From: Desulfofustis sp. PB-SRB1 | Lineage (GTDB): Bacteria > Desulfobacterota > Desulfobulbia > Desulfobulbales > Desulfocapsaceae | Direction of reading: 5' to 3' | DNA length: 47,014 nucleotides | Assembly (NCBI GenBank): GCA_016722945.1 | Contig: JAEQMT010000057.1 | Span: 115,001 to 162,014, forward strand | Shown here: piece after piece, positions 40 to 8,560 of the stretch | Numbering within the stretch: the first letter of the stretch is position 1 | How the letters are laid out: each line of letters starts with the position of its first letter | Program-made: the position numbers and the translations under genes | The notes under the pieces: generated by a model | Databases searched by the model: none | Seen by the model: the letters and a program-made list of their open reading frames with translations, nothing else | Told to the model about the DNA's origin: nothing

Positions 40-2661
40 TCAGGATGCCGGTTCGGCTACCTCAGATTGGTTGTTGACAATAAACACTATGCCGTTTTCG
101 TCGGTGTCAATGAGCACGGTATCGTTTTCCTTGAAGCGGCCTTCAAGTAATTCCAGGGCAAGCGGGTCCTCAACATATTTCTGGATTGCCCGTTTGAGCG
201 GTCGGGCACCAAAAATCGGGTTATAGCCGGCGCCGGCCAGATACCCACGAGCGTTTTTGCTGAAGCGCGCGTTGATATGCTGCCTTTTGAGACGATCGGT
301 AAGGCGGCGCAACTGGATCTCAACGATTGCCCCCATGTCCTCACGGGTGAGGGCGCGGAAGATAATGGTTTCATCGATGCGGTTTAAAAATTCCGGCTTG
401 AAATGTTGCCAGAGAACCTCTTCCAGGCTCTGCTTCATTGCTTCGTAGTCACTGCCCTGCTCGGTCATCCGCATGATCAGGTCACTGCCGAGATTGGAGG
501 TCATGATCAAGATGGTGTTCTTGAAATCCACCGTACGCCCCTTGCCGTCCGTCATCCGGCCATCGTCGAGCACCTGCAGCAGCACGTTGAACACGTCGGG
601 ATGCGCCTTTTCTATTTCATCGAGCAAAATCACGCTGTAGGGGCGTCTCCTTACCGCTTCGGTCAGGTAGCCGCCCTCATCATAGCCGACGTAGCCGGGA
701 GGGGCGCCGATCAGCCGGGCAACCGAATGTTTTTCCATAAATTCGGACATGTCGATACGGATCATCGCCTGTTCGCTGTCGAAGAGAAAATCTGCCAATG
801 AGCGGGCAAGTTCGGTCTTACCCACGCCGGTTGGCCCCATGAAGATAAACGACCCCAGCGGCCGATCAGGATCCTGCAGGCCGGCCCGAGCCCGGCGCAC
901 CGCGTTGGAGACGGCGGCAATGGCCTGTTTCTGCCCCACCACCCGTTTTTTCAAAATCGATTCAGCCTGCAGCAGCTTCTCCTTTTCTCCTTCCAGCAGC
1001 TTATCGACCGGAATGCCCGTCCATTTGGCTACCACCGAGGCGACATCTTCGGCCCCTACTTCTTCTTTGAGCATATGGTGGGTTGCCTGGATTTCCTGCA
1101 AGCGTTCGTTTTCCGTGGCCAGTTCTTTTTCCAGGGCGACGATCGTGCCGTAACGAATCTCCGCGACTTTACTCAGATCACCGGTGCGCTCAGCCCGCTG
1201 CGATTCGACCTGGGCAGCTTCAATCTGCTCCTTTATGGTACGGATTCGGCCGATTGTTTCGCGCTCCAGCGTCCATTGCGCCTTCATGCCGTTGAGCTGG
1301 TCGTTGAGGTCGGCCAGTTTTTTCTGTACCTCATCGAGACGGTTGATAGAGGCCTGATCCTTCTCCTTTTTCAGGGCTTCCTGCTCAATTTCGAGCTTGA
1401 TGCGCTGGCGCTCCAATTCGTCAATCTCGGTGGGCATGGAGTCGATTTCAATACGCAGGCGTGAGGCTGCCTCATCGATCAGGTCGATGGCTTTGTCCGG
1501 CAGAAATCGATCGGTGATATAGCGGTTAGACAAAATTACCGCCGCCACCGTGGCAGCGTCCTGGATGCGGACACCGTGGTGGATTTCATATTTTTCCTTG
1601 ATTCCGCGTAAAATGGCGATGGTGTCCTCTTCGCTGGGTTCCTGCACCAGTACGGGCTGGAAGCGGCGTTCGAGGGCGCTGTCTTTTTCGATATACTTGC
1701 GATATTCGTCCAGGGTGGTGGCGCCGATGCAGTGGAGTTCGCCGCGGGCAAGGGCGGGTTTGAGCATATTGGAGGCGTCCATAGAGCCTTCGGCGGCGCC
1801 GACGCCGACAAGGGTATGAATCTCGTCGATAAAGAGGACGATTTCACCGCTGCGTTGCTCGATCTCCTTGAGCACCGCCTTGAGGCGGTCTTCAAATTCG
1901 CCGCGATACTTGGCGCCGGCCACCAATGAGCCGAGGTCGAGGGTGACCACCTGCTTGTCCTTGAGTGTGGCGGGGATGTCACCGTTGACGATACGCTGCG
2001 CCAGCCCCTCGACAATGGCGGTTTTCCCCACTCCGGGTTCACCAATCAGAACGGGATTGTTTTTTGTTCGACGTGACAGAACCTGGACGATGCGGCGTAC
2101 CTCTTCGTCACGGCCGATGACCGGATCGAGTTTGCCCCGTTTGGCGATATCGGTGAGATTTTTGCCGTATTTTTCCAGGGCCTGATACTTATCTTCAGGA
2201 TATGGATCGGTTACCCGTTGATTGCCGCGGATGGTGAGCAGGGCCTTGAGAAAATTTTTCTCGGTTATGCCGAGGCCCCGCAGCTTTTCCGAGAGTGGGA
2301 ATGAGGCTCGAAGCAGGGCCAGGAAGATATGTTCCTGGCTCACATATTCATCGCCCATCTCGGTCGCCGCACTGTAAGACTTGTCCAGCAGGGTGCGCAG
2401 GTCATTGGAACCATAGATTTGGGTGGCACCGGTGCCGGAAACCTGAGGGATGGACTTAATCTGACTGTTGACTTCGGCCAGCACCCGTGACGGGGTTACG
2501 CCCATCTTCTGCAGGGCGGGAACGACGACGCCGTCAGGCTGCTCGAGGATAGCCTTGGCAAGGTGGGCGGGAGTCAGTTCCTGGTGTTTTTCTTCGGCCG
2601 CAATCTGTTGGGCGGCCTGCAACGCTTCTTGCGATTTCAGGGTCAGTTTGTCTAATTGCAT
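40..2661 (-). CDS. clpB: ATP-dependent disaggregase ClpB
   Basis: Hsp100 AAA+ protein that works with DnaK/DnaJ/GrpE in the cytoplasm to pull apart protein aggregates. The 873 residues include an N-terminal Clp repeat domain (about 1-150), a first nucleotide-binding domain with Walker [10 protein letters not shown], a long middle coiled-coil region (about 410-530) that distinguishes ClpB from ClpA/ClpC, and a second domain with GPTGVGKTE and the GAPPGYVGY pore loop. Length is slightly above the usual 855-865. The start ATG follows an AAGGAG box at a rather long spacing. A sigma70-like promoter lies about 60 bp upstream; I did not find a convincing sigma32 or CIRCE element. On the same strand, 27 bp beyond the stop, an ATG at position 12 may begin another gene running off the window. 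The identification is secure. Confidence 0.97.
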
Positions 2662-2721
2662 TAAATTTCAAAGCTCCTTTTTTCTAATATTGCCGGCAAG
2701 TTAAGTAGAAATTTTAGTTAA

Positions 2722-2749
2722 ATTGTAAGATGTGCGGCAAGGCTGTCAA
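2722..2749 (-). promoter_or_regulatory. sigma70-like promoter for clpB
   Basis: On the minus strand TTGACA (2749-2744) and TACAAT (2727-2722) are separated by 16 bp, upstream of the clpB start. Good match to the housekeeping consensus; prediction only. Confidence 0.5.
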
Positions 2750-2894
2750 GCCGCGCACAGTACTGGTATTAAAACGAAACGGTGCTGCAGCGTATTGAAA
2801 GAGGTGGATCAGGGTGGGGCGCTTTCTGTGGTGTGTTATAAGAAGAATTTGAGGTCGGTGACAATCTTGGTAAAATGTCAGAAGTGAGCGGTGA

Positions 2895-2917
2895 AGCCGG
2901 TATCCACGATACCGGCT
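2895..2917 (-). terminator. hairpin downstream of the HesB-like gene
   Basis: A perfect 10 bp inverted repeat (AGCCGGTATC / GATACCGGCT) with a 3 nt loop begins 12 bp after the stop codon of the HesB-like selenoprotein gene. It is not followed by a strong T-run, so it may be a weak intrinsic terminator or an mRNA 3' stabiliser. Confidence 0.45.
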
Positions 2918-2929
2918 CCAGATATCATG

Positions 2930-3268
2930 TTAGCCGCAACTGCCGGTTGAACAGGATCCAGCCGATGCACAACCCCCGCCTCCAATCGGATTTTGCGAGG
3001 TGATGCCGAAGCCCGAGCGAGCACCTGCCTCGACGTATTCGACGTTGATGGTGCCGCAGGTTTCCAGCAGGCTGTCTTCAACGAGAAATTGCAGGCTGTC
3101 CTTATCATATACCTTATCGTTTTCCTTTGGCTCATCCAGAGCCAAGCCGAGCGACGGACCTGATCAGCCGCCCTGCATCAGGGCAACGCGCAAAGCACTT
3201 TCGATATTATTCTGACTGAGGTATTCTTTTAGTTTCGATACAGCCAGATCAGTAACAACTAGTGACAT
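2930..3268 (-). CDS. HesB/IscA-like selenoprotein (in-frame UGA = Sec)
   Basis: Small A-type iron-sulfur scaffold/carrier relative. Reading through one in-frame TGA (3166-3164, codon 35) gives 112 residues starting MSLVVTDLAV and ending in a Gly/Cys-rich tail with Cys100, Cys106 and Cys111. The UGA falls in the motif QGG-U-SGPSLG, exactly where HesB/IscA proteins carry the first cluster-ligand cysteine of GGCSG. The ATG is preceded by GGAGGG. A 7 bp perfect hairpin with a 5 nt loop starts 18 nt after the UGA, fitting a bacterial SECIS. HesB-like selenoproteins are an established family in Deltaproteobacteria and some Firmicutes (from memory). Automated callers would report only residues 42-112 or a pseudogene. 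Function is inferred to be Fe-S or redox related; the selenocysteine machinery genes are not in this window. The alternative, a nonsense mutation, is disfavoured by the exact Cys position and the hairpin. Confidence 0.85.
3127..3145 (-). promoter_or_regulatory. SECIS-like hairpin of the HesB-like selenoprotein
   Basis: On the minus strand, TTGGCTC and GAGCCAA form a perfect 7 bp stem closed by a TGGAT loop, starting 18 nt downstream of the UGA codon. Bacterial SECIS elements lie in the coding sequence just after UGA and usually carry G in the first two loop positions; here the second loop base is G. Its position inside a coding region, directly after an in-frame UGA that replaces a family cysteine, supports a role in SelB recruitment. 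Confidence 0.7.
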
Positions 3269-3500
3269 TATTCCCTCCGTACAAATAGTTATCGTGGTCT
3301 CAGGATCACTTTACATGAAAATCCCTTACTACTATGGTAAACCCTTACGCTGATAAGTCAAATGGGTTTGGTTGTGTTTTTTTTACAAACTCTGATTAAC
3401 CCTCAACCGCATCATCTGGTACAAGGTTTTGTTGATAATTACTACCATCATATGGGAAAAATACGACGCTAGACGCGTATAATTTTTGAGAGGAATAACC

Positions 3501-4586
3501 GTGAAGAAAATAGTCATATCCACCGGCGGCGGTGACGCTCCAGGACTCAATGCGGTCATTTACGCGGTGGTGCATTCCTGTACCCGGCGGGGATGGGAAG
3601 TGTACGGCAGCAGAAGCGGGTACGGCGGGTTTCTTGATATGGACGAGATGGTCCGGTTGACGCCCCGAGACGTGGAGGAGATATATGCCACCGGTGGAAC
3701 AATTCTTGGTTCCACCAACAAGGGCAACCCCTTTGCCAAGCCGGTAAAAAATTTCGCCGGTGAGGTTCAGGTGGTGGATATGTCTGAGACGATCATGAAA
3801 AACTACCGGAGAATGGGTTTTGATTGCCATATCGCCATCGGCGGGGATGGCTCGCTGGAGATAGCCAATCGCTTCTCGCAACTGGGTATGAATGTTATCG
3901 GGGTACCGAAAACCATCGACAACGATCTGTTGATGACCGACCGGACGTTTGGGTTTGACACCGCCGTTTCCACTGCCACCAATGCCCTTGATAAACTGCA
4001 CTCCACCGCCAAGTCGCATGATCGGGTGATGGTGGTGGAAGTAATGGGCCGCGGTTCCGGCTGGATTGCATTGTACTCCGGAATATCAGGTGGGGCGGAT
4101 GTGATTTTGATTCCTGAGATTGCCTTTGATATCGATCGAGTATGTGAAAAAATCGCCGACAACGACCTGCGTGACAAAGATTACTCCATCGTGGTCGTTG
4201 CCGAGGGCGCAAAGGCCGCCGGTGGGCAGGTGATCAGTAAAGGGGCGGGCGAGCTGGGTCGGGAAGAGGTGGTGCTTGGCGGAATCGGCGAGTGGGTGGC
4301 GTCGGAAATCCGCGGTCGCACGGAAAAGGATACCCGGTCTCTGGTCTTGGGCCATTTGCAGCGAGGCGGCTCGCCCACCAATTTTGACCGGCTGCTGGCC
4401 CTGCGCTTTGGCGCGGCGGCGGTGCGCATGGTTGAGAAGGGGACATATGGCCATATGGTGGCGCTGGTTTCTTCGCAGATGAAGGCGGTGCCGATATCAG
4501 AGGCCATTTTCGAGCGCAAGAAGGTTGATTTAAACAGCGATAAAATGATGACCGCACGCGATATCGGCATCTGTTTCGGCGATTAA
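3501..4586 (+). CDS. pfkA: 6-phosphofructokinase (group III type; phosphoryl donor uncertain)
   Basis: Phosphorylates fructose 6-phosphate in glycolysis. The GTG start at 3501 is chosen because it follows GAGAGGAAT at good spacing, giving 361 residues. Visible motifs are GGGDAPGLNA (residues 9-18, nucleotide/phosphate loop), GGDGS (114-118), PKTIDND (136-142, catalytic Asp) and MGRGSGW (182-188). Gly in GGDG is typical of ATP users, while Lys in PKTIDND is found in the pyrophosphate-dependent and mixed group III enzymes, so ATP versus PPi cannot be settled by eye. A gene for an endonuclease III-like protein follows 14 bp downstream. No adjacent glycolytic genes are present. Confidence 0.93.
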   Translation: MKKIVISTGGGDAPGLNAVIYAVVHSCTRRGWEVYGSRSGYGGFLDMDEMVRLTPRDVEEIYATGGTILGSTNKGNPFAKPVKNFAGEVQVVDMSETIMKNYRRMGFDCHIAIGGDGSLEIANRFSQLGMNVIGVPKTIDNDLLMTDRTFGFDTAVSTATNALDKLHSTAKSHDRVMVVEVMGRGSGWIALYSGISGGADVILIPEIAFDIDRVCEKIADNDLRDKDYSIVVVAEGAKAAGGQVISKGAGELGREEVVLGGIGEWVASEIRGRTEKDTRSLVLGHLQRGGSPTNFDRLLALRFGAAAVRMVEKGTYGHMVALVSSQMKAVPISEAIFERKKVDLNSDKMMTARDIGICFGD

Positions 4587-5263: not shown

Positions 5264-5601
5264 TCGGAAAAACTCTTCTCGTCGTTGTCCCTGACCAGAT
5301 CACTGATCATCTCCTCAGCCTCATCTTTTTCATATCCCAGATGGATCAGCTCACGCCGATATGAGCCGAGCAGCTCCCGTGCCTTGAGCGGGGCCTTGTT
5401 CAGTAGATAAAGTCGGTAGCGCAGGGCGACGCAGTCCTCATCCATGGTGAGCAGGTGCTCGGTGTGGGTGCATATGGCGAGTGCCTCATCAAACTGGCCG
5501 TGGGACAGCAGGAGGTTGCCCCAACTCAAGCAGATATCGCGCATCAAGGCGATAATCTCCTCCCCAAAGGCAACGGCCTTGATCGTACCGAAAATGTTCA
5601 A
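5260..5601 (-). pseudogene. Frameshifted C-terminal BTAD segment of the MalT/SARP-like regulator
   Basis: This 113-codon stretch, in a different frame from the upstream 1023-codon gene, reads as the second half of a bacterial transcriptional activator domain: helical repeats such as ICLSWGNLLLSHGQFDEALAI and a final helix pair ending in YRRELIHLGY. The upstream frame loses similarity soon after the WQAENMFTEAFSCWHQMKW segment and continues into a short unrelated tail. The simplest reading is one gene (5260-8560) broken by a one- or two-base frameshift between about 5530 and 5610. It could be a real mutation or a base-calling error; an independent start at TTG 5601 has no good ribosome site. 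Confidence 0.65.
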
Positions 5602-8560
5602 TCCATTTCATCTGGTGCCAGCAGGAAAATGCCTCGGTGAACATATTTTCGGCCTGCCACCACTGGTGCCGACCGGCATGGTGCAATCCTTTTTTGCCGA
5701 GAGCGAGAAACAAGACGCCGTCTATGGCGACGTTTTTCAGCCTGACGTAGCCTTTTTCTACCTTAAGGTAATGTTTTACCGGTGCTGAAAGCGAGGTCGC
5801 CAAGGTTTTGCGAAATCTGCTGATCAGTGTGTCGGCCGCTTTTCGTGCCTTATCCGGATCACTGTCGGGCCAGAAGGTGAGCTGGATCTGGTCCTGACTG
5901 ACGCTTTGCCCAGGAGAAGAGATCAGCAGGCCGAGCAATTCACGCTGAGTTCCGCTGAAGTCGGTGATGTCCAGAGATGTATCGCCCGCTTGCCCGACGT
6001 AAAAGGTACCGAGGATGTTGATGGTTAACAGGGGAAGCGGTTCATCCGCTCCGATTGGCGTGCGCAGGAGCCTGGATTGCAGACATGACAGGGCAAACTC
6101 GGGCTCTATTTTTCGGTGATAGGCGGCCGATAGGAGCGTGCCCATAATGGTGGGCTCCCATCCGTAAAAGTAGGTGTAGCCATGGGTCTGCATAAGTTTC
6201 AGTAGGTCTGCAGACAACCGCGCCATATCCTCGTCATTGTGATGCTCATGGGCAATCCAGGCGCGGTAGGCCAGGGCACACATGACAATGGAAGGGCAGG
6301 AGATTGCGTCGGCTTCGTGCTGGGCCTGGCGCAGCAGGACCTCAGCCTGTTCAAATTTTCTTAAGATGGCAAGCGTGGCGCCGTGCAGGGCGTGGTTCTG
6401 CGCCAGATAGTAGGGCGATCCGGCCGTTTCGCGCAAGTTCGCGGACTGCTCGATATCGGCGATGGCGGGCTCTTTGTGGCCTAAAATAGCACGGGCAAAG
6501 GCGCGCCACTGCAGAAATTGGCTGGTCATGTGCGGGCTTGCCGCGGTTGCCGATACTTGCATACCCTCTTCAATCTGTAATATTGCCTCGCTCGCCCTGC
6601 CGGTGGAGACCATGGTGATGGTCGAGAAGATATAAATAAACGGGGCGGCCACGGTCTGCCGGACAATGTTTTGCCCGAGCCTCGCCTTGCTTGCTTCAAT
6701 ACGCTTGTCAACGACGGCAAAGGCGCCATACATTAGCAGGGCCGTGAGCTGCAGCAATTTGAGAATCAGCCGGTTGCTGGCACTCACCAGCGGGTCGTAG
6801 CCCAACGGGTAAGAGGCCTCGATCTGGTTGACGACATCGTGCCGGTTGCCGCTCAGCAGGCCGATGTAGCCGAGAATCCAGCGGGTGGAGGCCTGGAAAT
6901 TCTTGCTTTTCTTGCTGATGGCGAGGTTGAGACTGAGTTCCCCATACTGTCTGGCCGTACTCATGTCACCGGTAAAGAAACAATAGCCGGCGGCCAGGTT
7001 ACGAGCCGCGATTATGGTAATTTCCGGGGGAAGCTGGTCAATGGATTGTTCCAGTAATAAACGGGTGGTCTCAAGTAGTTCGGCGCCGGCCCGATAATAT
7101 CCGGTGACCGCAAAATGAAAGTAGATCATCTGAGTAAGCGCCATTAATTCGCCAAACATTTCGCCCCGCTCATGAAACTGGCGTCGCGCTGTTTGCAGAA
7201 ACGGCATGATGTGACCAGGAGCAGTGTCGATTGCCAGCAGGCCATAGAAAAACGAGAGCCAGCCGTGTTCTTGCAGAATACCCTCCGGGATGGTCTGCAA
7301 AACAGCCAGAATGGTCATCGTTCGGTTGCGTGCAAGCAGCGTGAGACCGTGCTGCTTCAACAGCAGCTCCATGCCGTGGTAGTCCTCTGCGTTGCGCAAC
7401 GATTTAAGCGCCTTATCGATAAGATCGTTGGCGAGATAATGCGCTGCCGCCTGGCGATGAATGGTGTCGATAACCGATTTTTCCAGCATCCTTCGCGCCT
7501 GAATCTGGAGAAAATCCTGAAAGAGGTGATGAAAGCGAAAGGTTTGGTTCACCTCATCGAGCCGATAAATAAAGAAATTGGTGTCGGCCATCTCCATGAG
7601 TTGGCGCCTTGTATCTTCGGCAACACCAAGACGGGAGAACATCGAAACGTCAATTTCATCTAAAAATGCAAGTTTCAGAAAGGTTTCATGCAGGTGGGCG
7701 GGTACCTGGGAAAATATCTCTACCTCGAAGTAGCTGAGAATGTTGGTGTCGGTGCCCGCCTCGGGAAAATGCGGCATGCCGGTGACTCTGCGTTTTTTTT
7801 TCTCAGCGGTAAGGGGATGAGCGGCCAGCACGATCCCCATTATCCAGCCGTCGGTGACGGCACGGATACCGGTGGCTTGGGTGCGGCTGATGGGGATATT
7901 GAGGATATCGTGATAGAGTTGTTCAATATCCCGTACGCCCAGGGCCAGGTCTTTTGTATCGAGATAGATCAGATGGGGGTTATCACGCAGCGCTCGGGCG
8001 GTGACGGTAAGCGGGTGCCTGGTTGCCAGGATAAAACCCAGGGATTGTGGAGATGCATCGATCAGATGGGTCAGGACTTCGACTGAGAGGCGTGCGTCGT
8101 TAATCAGATGGACATCGTCGAGTACCAGGTACCAGTGGCCGTCCAGATGAGTTTCCAGATCGTTGAGCAGGATAGTAACGAGTCCCTGCAGATCCATTGG
8201 GCCGACCTGACTATTGTTGATGATATCGGTAAGTTGGGATGAGGTGAAGTCATCCAGGTGAGGGCTGAAGGCCTGCAGCAGGGCGGACAGGAAATAGACC
8301 GGGTCTCGGTCATCATCGCTTATCTGGTACCAGATATAGGGGTGATGATGATGCTTGAGAAATTGATGTACCAGAGTCGTTTTTCCCTGGCCCGCCTGAG
8401 CTTCGACGACAATCAGTTTTTCGTCGGCCTGATCACTTTGCAACCGTGCACTGATGAGAGGGTGTCTGGCAATGGCCTGAGATGCCTTGATGCGGGGCGG
8501 ATAAAACTTGTTGGCGGCGATTGGGGTCGGCAGTACGGAAGAGTGTTGCTGCATCTGCAT
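5489..8560 (-). CDS. MalT/AfsR-like STAND ATPase transcriptional regulator (frameshifted 3' end)
   Basis: Large signal-transducing regulator. N-terminal MalT-type NTPase: entry motif LPTPIAANKFYPPRI (10-24), Walker A AQAGQGKTT (54-62) and Walker B WYLVLDDVHLI. A long TPR-like helical region follows (about 400-800), then a winged-helix Trans_reg_C domain of the SARP/OmpR type (about 865-965, beginning LLTINILGTFYVG), then the start of a bacterial transcriptional activator domain. Classical MalT ends in a LuxR helix-turn-helix; here DNA binding would be through the winged helix instead. The frame breaks inside the last domain, whose remainder lies at 5260-5601, so the native protein would be about 1100 residues. 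Inducer and targets are unknown; neighbours give no pathway clue. trmJ begins 27 bp upstream on the same strand. Confidence 0.85.
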   Translation of the reverse strand: MQMQQHSSVLPTPIAANKFYPPRIKASQAIARHPLISARLQSDQADEKLIVVEAQAGQGKTTLVHQFLKHHHHPYIWYQISDDDRDPVYFLSALLQAFSPHLDDFTSSQLTDIINNSQVGPMDLQGLVTILLNDLETHLDGHWYLVLDDVHLINDARLSVEVLTHLIDASPQSLGFILATRHPLTVTARALRDNPHLIYLDTKDLALGVRDIEQLYHDILNIPISRTQATGIRAVTDGWIMGIVLAAHPLTAEKKKRRVTGMPHFPEAGTDTNILSYFEVEIFSQVPAHLHETFLKLAFLDEIDVSMFSRLGVAEDTRRQLMEMADTNFFIYRLDEVNQTFRFHHLFQDFLQIQARRMLEKSVIDTIHRQAAAHYLANDLIDKALKSLRNAEDYHGMELLLKQHGLTLLARNRTMTILAVLQTIPEGILQEHGWLSFFYGLLAIDTAPGHIMPFLQTARRQFHERGEMFGELMALTQMIYFHFAVTGYYRAGAELLETTRLLLEQSIDQLPPEITIIAARNLAAGYCFFTGDMSTARQYGELSLNLAISKKSKNFQASTRWILGYIGLLSGNRHDVVNQIEASYPLGYDPLVSASNRLILKLLQLTALLMYGAFAVVDKRIEASKARLGQNIVRQTVAAPFIYIFSTITMVSTGRASEAILQIEEGMQVSATAASPHMTSQFLQWRAFARAILGHKEPAIADIEQSANLRETAGSPYYLAQNHALHGATLAILRKFEQAEVLLRQAQHEADAISCPSIVMCALAYRAWIAHEHHNDEDMARLSADLLKLMQTHGYTYFYGWEPTIMGTLLSAAYHRKIEPEFALSCLQSRLLRTPIGADEPLPLLTINILGTFYVGQAGDTSLDITDFSGTQRELLGLLISSPGQSVSQDQIQLTFWPDSDPDKARKAADTLISRFRKTLATSLSAPVKHYLKVEKGYVRLKNVAIDGVLFLALGKKGLHHAGRHQWWQAENMFTEAFSCWHQMKWIEHFRYDQGRCLWGGDYRLDARYLLELGQPPAVPRPV

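Follow-up and report, generated by a model that had tools for sequence, protein, structure and literature searches.

Is the TGA that interrupts a reading frame on the minus strand of a Desulfofustis sp. PB-SRB1 contig the end of a gene, or is it read as selenocysteine (Sec), and if it is read, what kind of protein is made? The frame occupies positions 2930–3268 of the window, the whole stretch of 47,014 nucleotides that was analysed. Desulfofustis belongs to Desulfocapsaceae. The frame starts at an ATG (3268–3266) preceded at a distance of 4 nt by a Shine-Dalgarno-like GGAGGG (3278–3273), ends with TAA (2932–2930), and is open save for one TGA at codon 35 (3164–3166). Translated with TGA as U, it gives 112 residues, with Sec35 inside GGUSGPSL (USGP being residues 35–38) and Cys100, Cys106 and Cys111 in a Gly/Ser/Cys C-terminal tail (residues 96–112; positions 2933–2983, minus strand). 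An earlier note, made from the sequence of this DNA, had described the start codon with its ribosome site, the single TGA and a product with these residues, and all of this was confirmed; Cys71, missing from its Cys list, is also present in the read-through protein. The note had also expected ordinary gene callers to miss the N-terminal third. Under translation table 11 and a minimum of 60 aa, the frame indeed yields only a TTG-started ORF of 71 aa (2930–3145), hence an ordinary gene caller would lose that third. The evidence below bears out a selenoprotein gene that is cut short when genes are called with table 11.

Comparison with relatives indicates that the frame is more than a chance one, because identity of 81–87% to the closest relatives runs across the TGA and these relatives have a stop at the same residue (L049 from Desulfofustis glycolicus is a TGA copy with 87% identity). 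We searched 58 genomes, comprising the source and members of the same family and order. Matches were found in 58/58 genomes and a TGA copy at site 35 in 55/58; in their best copy, the three others have TGT (G022 and G054) or AAT (G002, whose match also has an internal TGA, but away from site 35). Among 103 distinct copies from windows, relatives and paralogs, with identical stretches counted once and two partial matches of one place that start after residue 34 (L003 and L163) skipped, the site-35 codon was TGA in 64, TGC in 18, TGT in 16 and another sense codon in five, and these five copies are only 31–40% identical. Close relatives with a sense codon other than Cys at this site and without the hairpin would have spoken against the earlier note; what we found is TGA in nearly all sampled genomes, with the hairpin kept alongside it. 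In the phylum, the NF038090 model matched in 171/296 genomes and exceeded its cut-off in 131, and among the phylum matches listed more than half hold TGA (counted by eye; the site was checked in 30 fetched loci).

The sequence following the TGA contains a hairpin, TTGGCTC-TGGAT-GAGCCAA (UUGGCUC-UGGAU-GAGCCAA in RNA; 3145–3127, minus strand), which, just as the earlier note had it, begins 18 nt 3′ of the TGA and has seven perfect pairs; its loop is of 5 nt. Bacterial SECIS elements are described in PMC1088965 as hairpins directly 3′ of UGA with a G in a small apical loop, and the present hairpin directly follows the UGA and has G as the second base of its loop, UGGAU. We compared 86 distinct TGA stretches (the window, relatives and added loci from other orders) with 39 Cys stretches, and excluded the five copies with ACC, AAG, AAT, GCC or TCC at site 35. 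Each core pair, from 24–38 to 28–34, was formed in 86/86 TGA copies, and all five together were present in 86/86 TGA copies vs 2/39 Cys copies; since these and the following counts come from kin sequences and not from independent events, they are strong contrasts rather than probabilities. Six pairs together were found in 82/86 vs 1/39 copies, and the outermost seventh pair (22–40), which 22/86 TGA copies miss, in 64/86 vs 5/39. G at the first two loop bases was counted in 86/86 TGA copies vs 23/39 Cys copies. Thus the hairpin is under joint selection with the TGA, like a bacterial SECIS.

Codon usage within the stem points the same way. In TGA copies, codon 43 is GCT in 84/86 (GTT in 2), against 78/441 Ala codons elsewhere in the same genes; codon 44 is CTG in 86/86, against 229/618 Leu codons outside the hairpin; and codon 46 is GAG in 84/86 (GAA in 2), against 176/461 Glu codons outside the hairpin. 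In these alignments, only the copies with TGA keep the synonymous sites of the hairpin frozen. Moreover, three double compensatory changes were seen, G-C to T-A at pair 24–38 in L091 and C-G to T-A at pair 26–36 in L190 and L192, where the GTT and GAA codons occur together and both sides of the pair are changed; G-U stands at pair 25–37 in 12 TGA copies. In a shuffle test over six pairs, 512/516 cells were paired, with a shuffle mean of 508.1 and 0/1000 shuffles as high, and this result is given little weight, since its columns are nearly invariant and its rows come from related sequences. More weight lies on the contrast between Sec and Cys copies and on the three double changes. Folding of the single sequence did not find the stretch unusually stable (z = -0.46; 60/200 shuffles fold as well), so the case for the hairpin rests on conservation rather than stability, and an Rfam scan of the window gave no match at the gathering threshold.

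Decoding of UGA also needs the corresponding machinery, and the earlier note had proposed searching the genome for selA, selB, selC and selD; absence of selB/selC would have told against it. In the source assembly (4.69 Mb, 97.6% complete) all four were found over cut-off: tRNA-Sec with 71.4 bits (gathering 47), SelB with 371.6 (242.25), SelA with 611.5 (267.9) and SelD (L072) with 361.8 (125). The tRNA-Sec gene lies on another contig than the window, and a tRNA scan of the window found none. The SelD frame itself has one in-frame TGA, in the context CG-TGA-AAK (CG-U-AAK), and is a second selenoprotein gene of this genome. In 14 control genomes, the searches for tRNA-Sec, SelB and SelD matched in 14/14 and were over cut-off in 5, 2 and 2, and the SelA search matched in 4 and was over cut-off in 1. 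A tRNA match alone is therefore weak, being over gathering in 5/14 controls vs 2/14 for SelB; taken together, tRNA-Sec, SelB, SelA and SelD are not weak evidence for decoding.

The reading of the TGA as a real stop, a sequencing error or the mark of a decayed pseudogene can draw on the unremarkable single-sequence folding. It has to account for a TGA at the same codon in 55/58 genomes and in over half of the phylum matches listed (by eye; 30 loci checked), and for synonymous hairpin sites that are frozen only alongside the TGA. We consider it ruled out in practice by the conserved TGA and the conserved hairpin together, and give it almost no credence. Codon 35 is almost certainly decoded as Sec.

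What is decoded is assigned by the NF038090 model (IscA_HesB_Se), which the read-through protein matched with 135.7 bits against a cut-off of 85 (E 5.8e-40) and which was over cut-off in 0/14 control genomes; searching this protein against selenoprotein families had been a suggestion of the earlier note. The A-type domain model PF01521 (Fe-S_biosyn) scored 31.9 bits against 26.3, TIGR00049 narrowly missed its cut-off (56 vs 58.8 bits), and TIGR01911 (HesB_rel_seleno) stayed under its curated cut-off (49.4 vs 66.35 bits). Equivalog membership in IscA, SufA or ErpA was ruled out (TIGR02011 41.2/150.6, TIGR01997 37.7/136.2 and NF010147 38.7/117 bits). A profile built from 25 sequences found five solved sequences, IscA and SufA among them, and its printed alignments put the site-35 column on the Cys of GCSG in E. 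coli IscA (1r94). This agrees with the earlier note, in which the TGA falls on the first ligand Cys of the HesB motif GGCSG, a motif of A-type carriers. An AlphaFold model (mean pLDDT 78.5, pTM 0.63, with residues 97–112 under 50) matched best in the PDB to IscA 1r94 (E 5.1e-7), HI1723, SufA and other A-type proteins, and the fold matches to 1r94 and 2d2a identify an A-type fold. UxGP is present in 86/86 Sec copies. With the family score, the decoding machinery and the conserved TGA and hairpin all in its favour, we put the probability at about 0.9 that the gene encodes a selenoprotein of the IscA_HesB_Se family, predicted to be decoded at UGA by SelB and to have 112 residues in an A-type-carrier fold. 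According to this model, the hairpin that begins 18 nt past the UGA would guide SelB and its Sec-tRNA-Sec to insert Sec at residue 35, and read-through would yield the complete protein.

In A-type Fe-S carriers the ligands are three Cys, of which the two C-terminal ones lie in a CGCG motif. The present protein has Sec35 and the tail GGGGCASAGSCSTGSCG, without CGCG, in which Cys100, Cys106 and Cys111 take the place of that pair with the spacing C-x5-C-x4-C. In an alignment of 25 rows (18 Sec and 7 Cys rows, Sec written as C), site 35, C71, C100, C106 and C111 are invariant. In the larger set, at least three Cys lie within the last 18 residues in 84/86 Sec copies, CGC in the tail is found in only 7/86, and a Cys near position 71 is present in 64/86 and absent near the site in 22/86. 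The source genome also contains a separate ordinary carrier (L086) with GGCAG and CGCG. In addition, it has two diverged HesB-like paralogs, one with Ala at site 35 (L002) and one whose match begins only at residue 36–37 (L003), and a Cys corresponding to Cys71 is retained in both. A PF01521 search of 38 genomes gave matches in 31, over cut-off in 28, and stop-free matches above 50 bits in 14 (by eye), of which 13/14 have the CGC motif (motif script; L079 was not recovered). The canonical CGCG carrier thus has a patchy distribution, in contrast to the near-universal Sec protein.

Three uses of such a protein have to be weighed. We lean, with about even confidence, towards a selenolate-ligated A-type carrier of metal or Fe-S, and favour it over a pure redox role. 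Sec35 and the Cys of the flexible C-terminal tail would form an IscA-like metal or Fe-S site in which the selenolate is one ligand, in an anaerobe that has an ordinary CGCG-type carrier as well; the joint site stays a proposal because pLDDT is below 50 over tail residues 97–112. The separate carrier L086, the rarity of CGC tails among Sec copies and a neighbourhood free of isc or suf genes (none among the five neighbouring genes scanned) count against it. The same selenoprotein could instead act in thiol/selenol redox chemistry or chalcogen transfer, in which Sec35 and a tail Cys would form a selenenylsulfide or carry persulfide. The spaced tail Cys of the protein and the frequent Cys near site 71 would suit this chemistry, and PMC13188914 presumes redox functions for most prokaryotic selenoproteins that are uncharacterised. 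However, both the fold and the replaced residue are those of an A-type carrier and not of a thioredoxin fold, Sec lies in UxGP in every Sec copy and not in UxxC, and about a quarter of the Sec copies (22/86) do without a Cys near site 71. We therefore hold the redox reading for a serious contender that is somewhat less probable than the selenolate carrier.

Binding by Sec35 of a soft metal or metalloid of another kind, such as Hg, As or Cu, in detoxification or homeostasis, would fit a small protein with a thiol-rich tail, and PMC13188914 ties several recent selenoproteins, in which Sec may be a ligand, to resistance against Hg/As. The gene is nevertheless near-universal, unlike a resistance cassette, and its two commonest neighbours, on which this objection is based, are a phosphofructokinase gene and clpB. 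We judge this use improbable.

The neighbourhood itself seems to be a matter of descent. The gene pfkA (3486–4586, plus strand; TIGR02483, 452 bits) lies outside the selenoprotein gene as its divergent neighbour, and clpB (40–2661, minus strand; TIGR03346, 1347.3 bits) lies downstream on the same strand. Divergent pfkA upstream was found in 60/65 and same-strand clpB downstream in 44/66 of the order-level Sec loci with enough flank, and each in 0/17 loci outside the order. Shared descent is enough to explain a gene order that is kept within the order and nowhere in the loci outside it, and a functional link to pfkA or clpB was dropped as an explanation for this reason. Farther away is a large regulator (5489–8560, minus strand) whose N-terminal part is MalT-like, with 172.5 bits where the cut-off is 537; its relatives are near the gene in 12/64 Sec loci, many loci being too short to reach. 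L112 and two other Sec loci share a recurrent neighbour about 1.6–1.7 kb upstream that by eye is Fur/PerR-type-like. Directly 3′ of the selenoprotein gene is an inverted repeat, GCCGGTATC-GTG-GATACCGGC (2895–2917, minus strand), without a T run. A promoter/terminator scan of 2600–3600 found no terminator-like sites and did not call this repeat; its seven promoter-like sites, against a shuffle mean of 1.4, were not taken as evidence.

A tree of 124 rows and 110 columns, with 50/121 inner branches open, needs nine Sec/Cys changes; its starred branches force five of these, and it is too weak to order most changes. Two Cys copies, L092 and L103, still have the complete GGCTC/GAGCC hairpin and are the 2/39 mentioned above; because they keep the stem, they probably represent a recent Sec-to-Cys change with a fossil SECIS. 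In addition, ten distinct tandem pairs of a Sec and a Cys copy on one strand were found (in 12 rows, since two of the pairs occur twice; L035, L103, L065, L067, L130, L166, L168, L184, L187 and L190). The two sites 35 of a pair are 407–680 nt apart, and the Cys copy is downstream in 7/10 and upstream in 3/10. Among the phylum matches listed, at least 13 close pairs of a TGA copy and a stop-free copy were counted by eye, five of which are among these ten. Such tandem copies might back each other up in a selenium-dependent way, or their products might form mixed dimers. A more speculative and rather unlikely extension is an Fe-S carrier whose selenolate is a cluster ligand and whose tandem Sec/Cys products act as mixed dimers or as a selenium-dependent pair, so that selenium supply would tune cluster transfer. 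Nearly all of the sampled relatives have the Sec form, and its SECIS-type hairpin is frozen even at synonymous sites. Together with the separate CGCG carrier and the tandem Sec/Cys pairs, the wide spread of the Sec form makes the family a good place to probe what selenium contributes to an Fe-S carrier fold.

The family as such has been on record for about two decades: lists of selenoproteins included HesB-like ones by 2005–2006, and the present gene is a further member. PMC1242214 counts HesB among known selenoproteins, and PMC1794560 reports 11 HesB-like selenoproteins with Syntrophobacter, Desulfovibrio and Geobacter among the hosts, which agrees with the earlier statement that they occur in Deltaproteobacteria. 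The family also has a row with the motif UxGP in PMC13188914 and a TIGR01911 row in PMC9312934. No biochemical function for any HesB-like selenoprotein is given in the titles and abstract openings of the literature surveyed, and the main text of PMC7144353, on A-type proteins, is without the word part 'seleno'.

Compared with the NF038090/TIGR01911 family, our protein is alike in UxGP, in Sec at the Cys of GGCSG, in the downstream bacterial SECIS-type hairpin and in host group, and it differs in that its score falls short of the curated cut-off of TIGR01911, which is the model cited for this family in the reviews. With IscA, SufA and ErpA it shares the fold, the first-ligand position and a C-terminal Cys tail, but here Sec replaces Cys at residue 35, CGCG is absent and the scores are far under the equivalog cut-offs. 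The Cys copies L092 and L103 resemble the HesB-like protein of Desulfitobacterium hafniense, a Cys form for which PMC1794560 reported a left-over SECIS after a Sec-to-Cys change. The HesB-like protein MMJJ_08070 of Methanococcus maripaludis was, according to PMC11097638 and earlier work cited there, identified by mutagenesis and 75Se labelling; its disruption mutant still fixes nitrogen, and its function is called not clear. It bears the same family name and is likened to our protein by description, whereas its SECIS would be expected in the 3′ untranslated region, as is general in archaea (PMC1088965), and the hairpin in the present gene directly follows the UGA.
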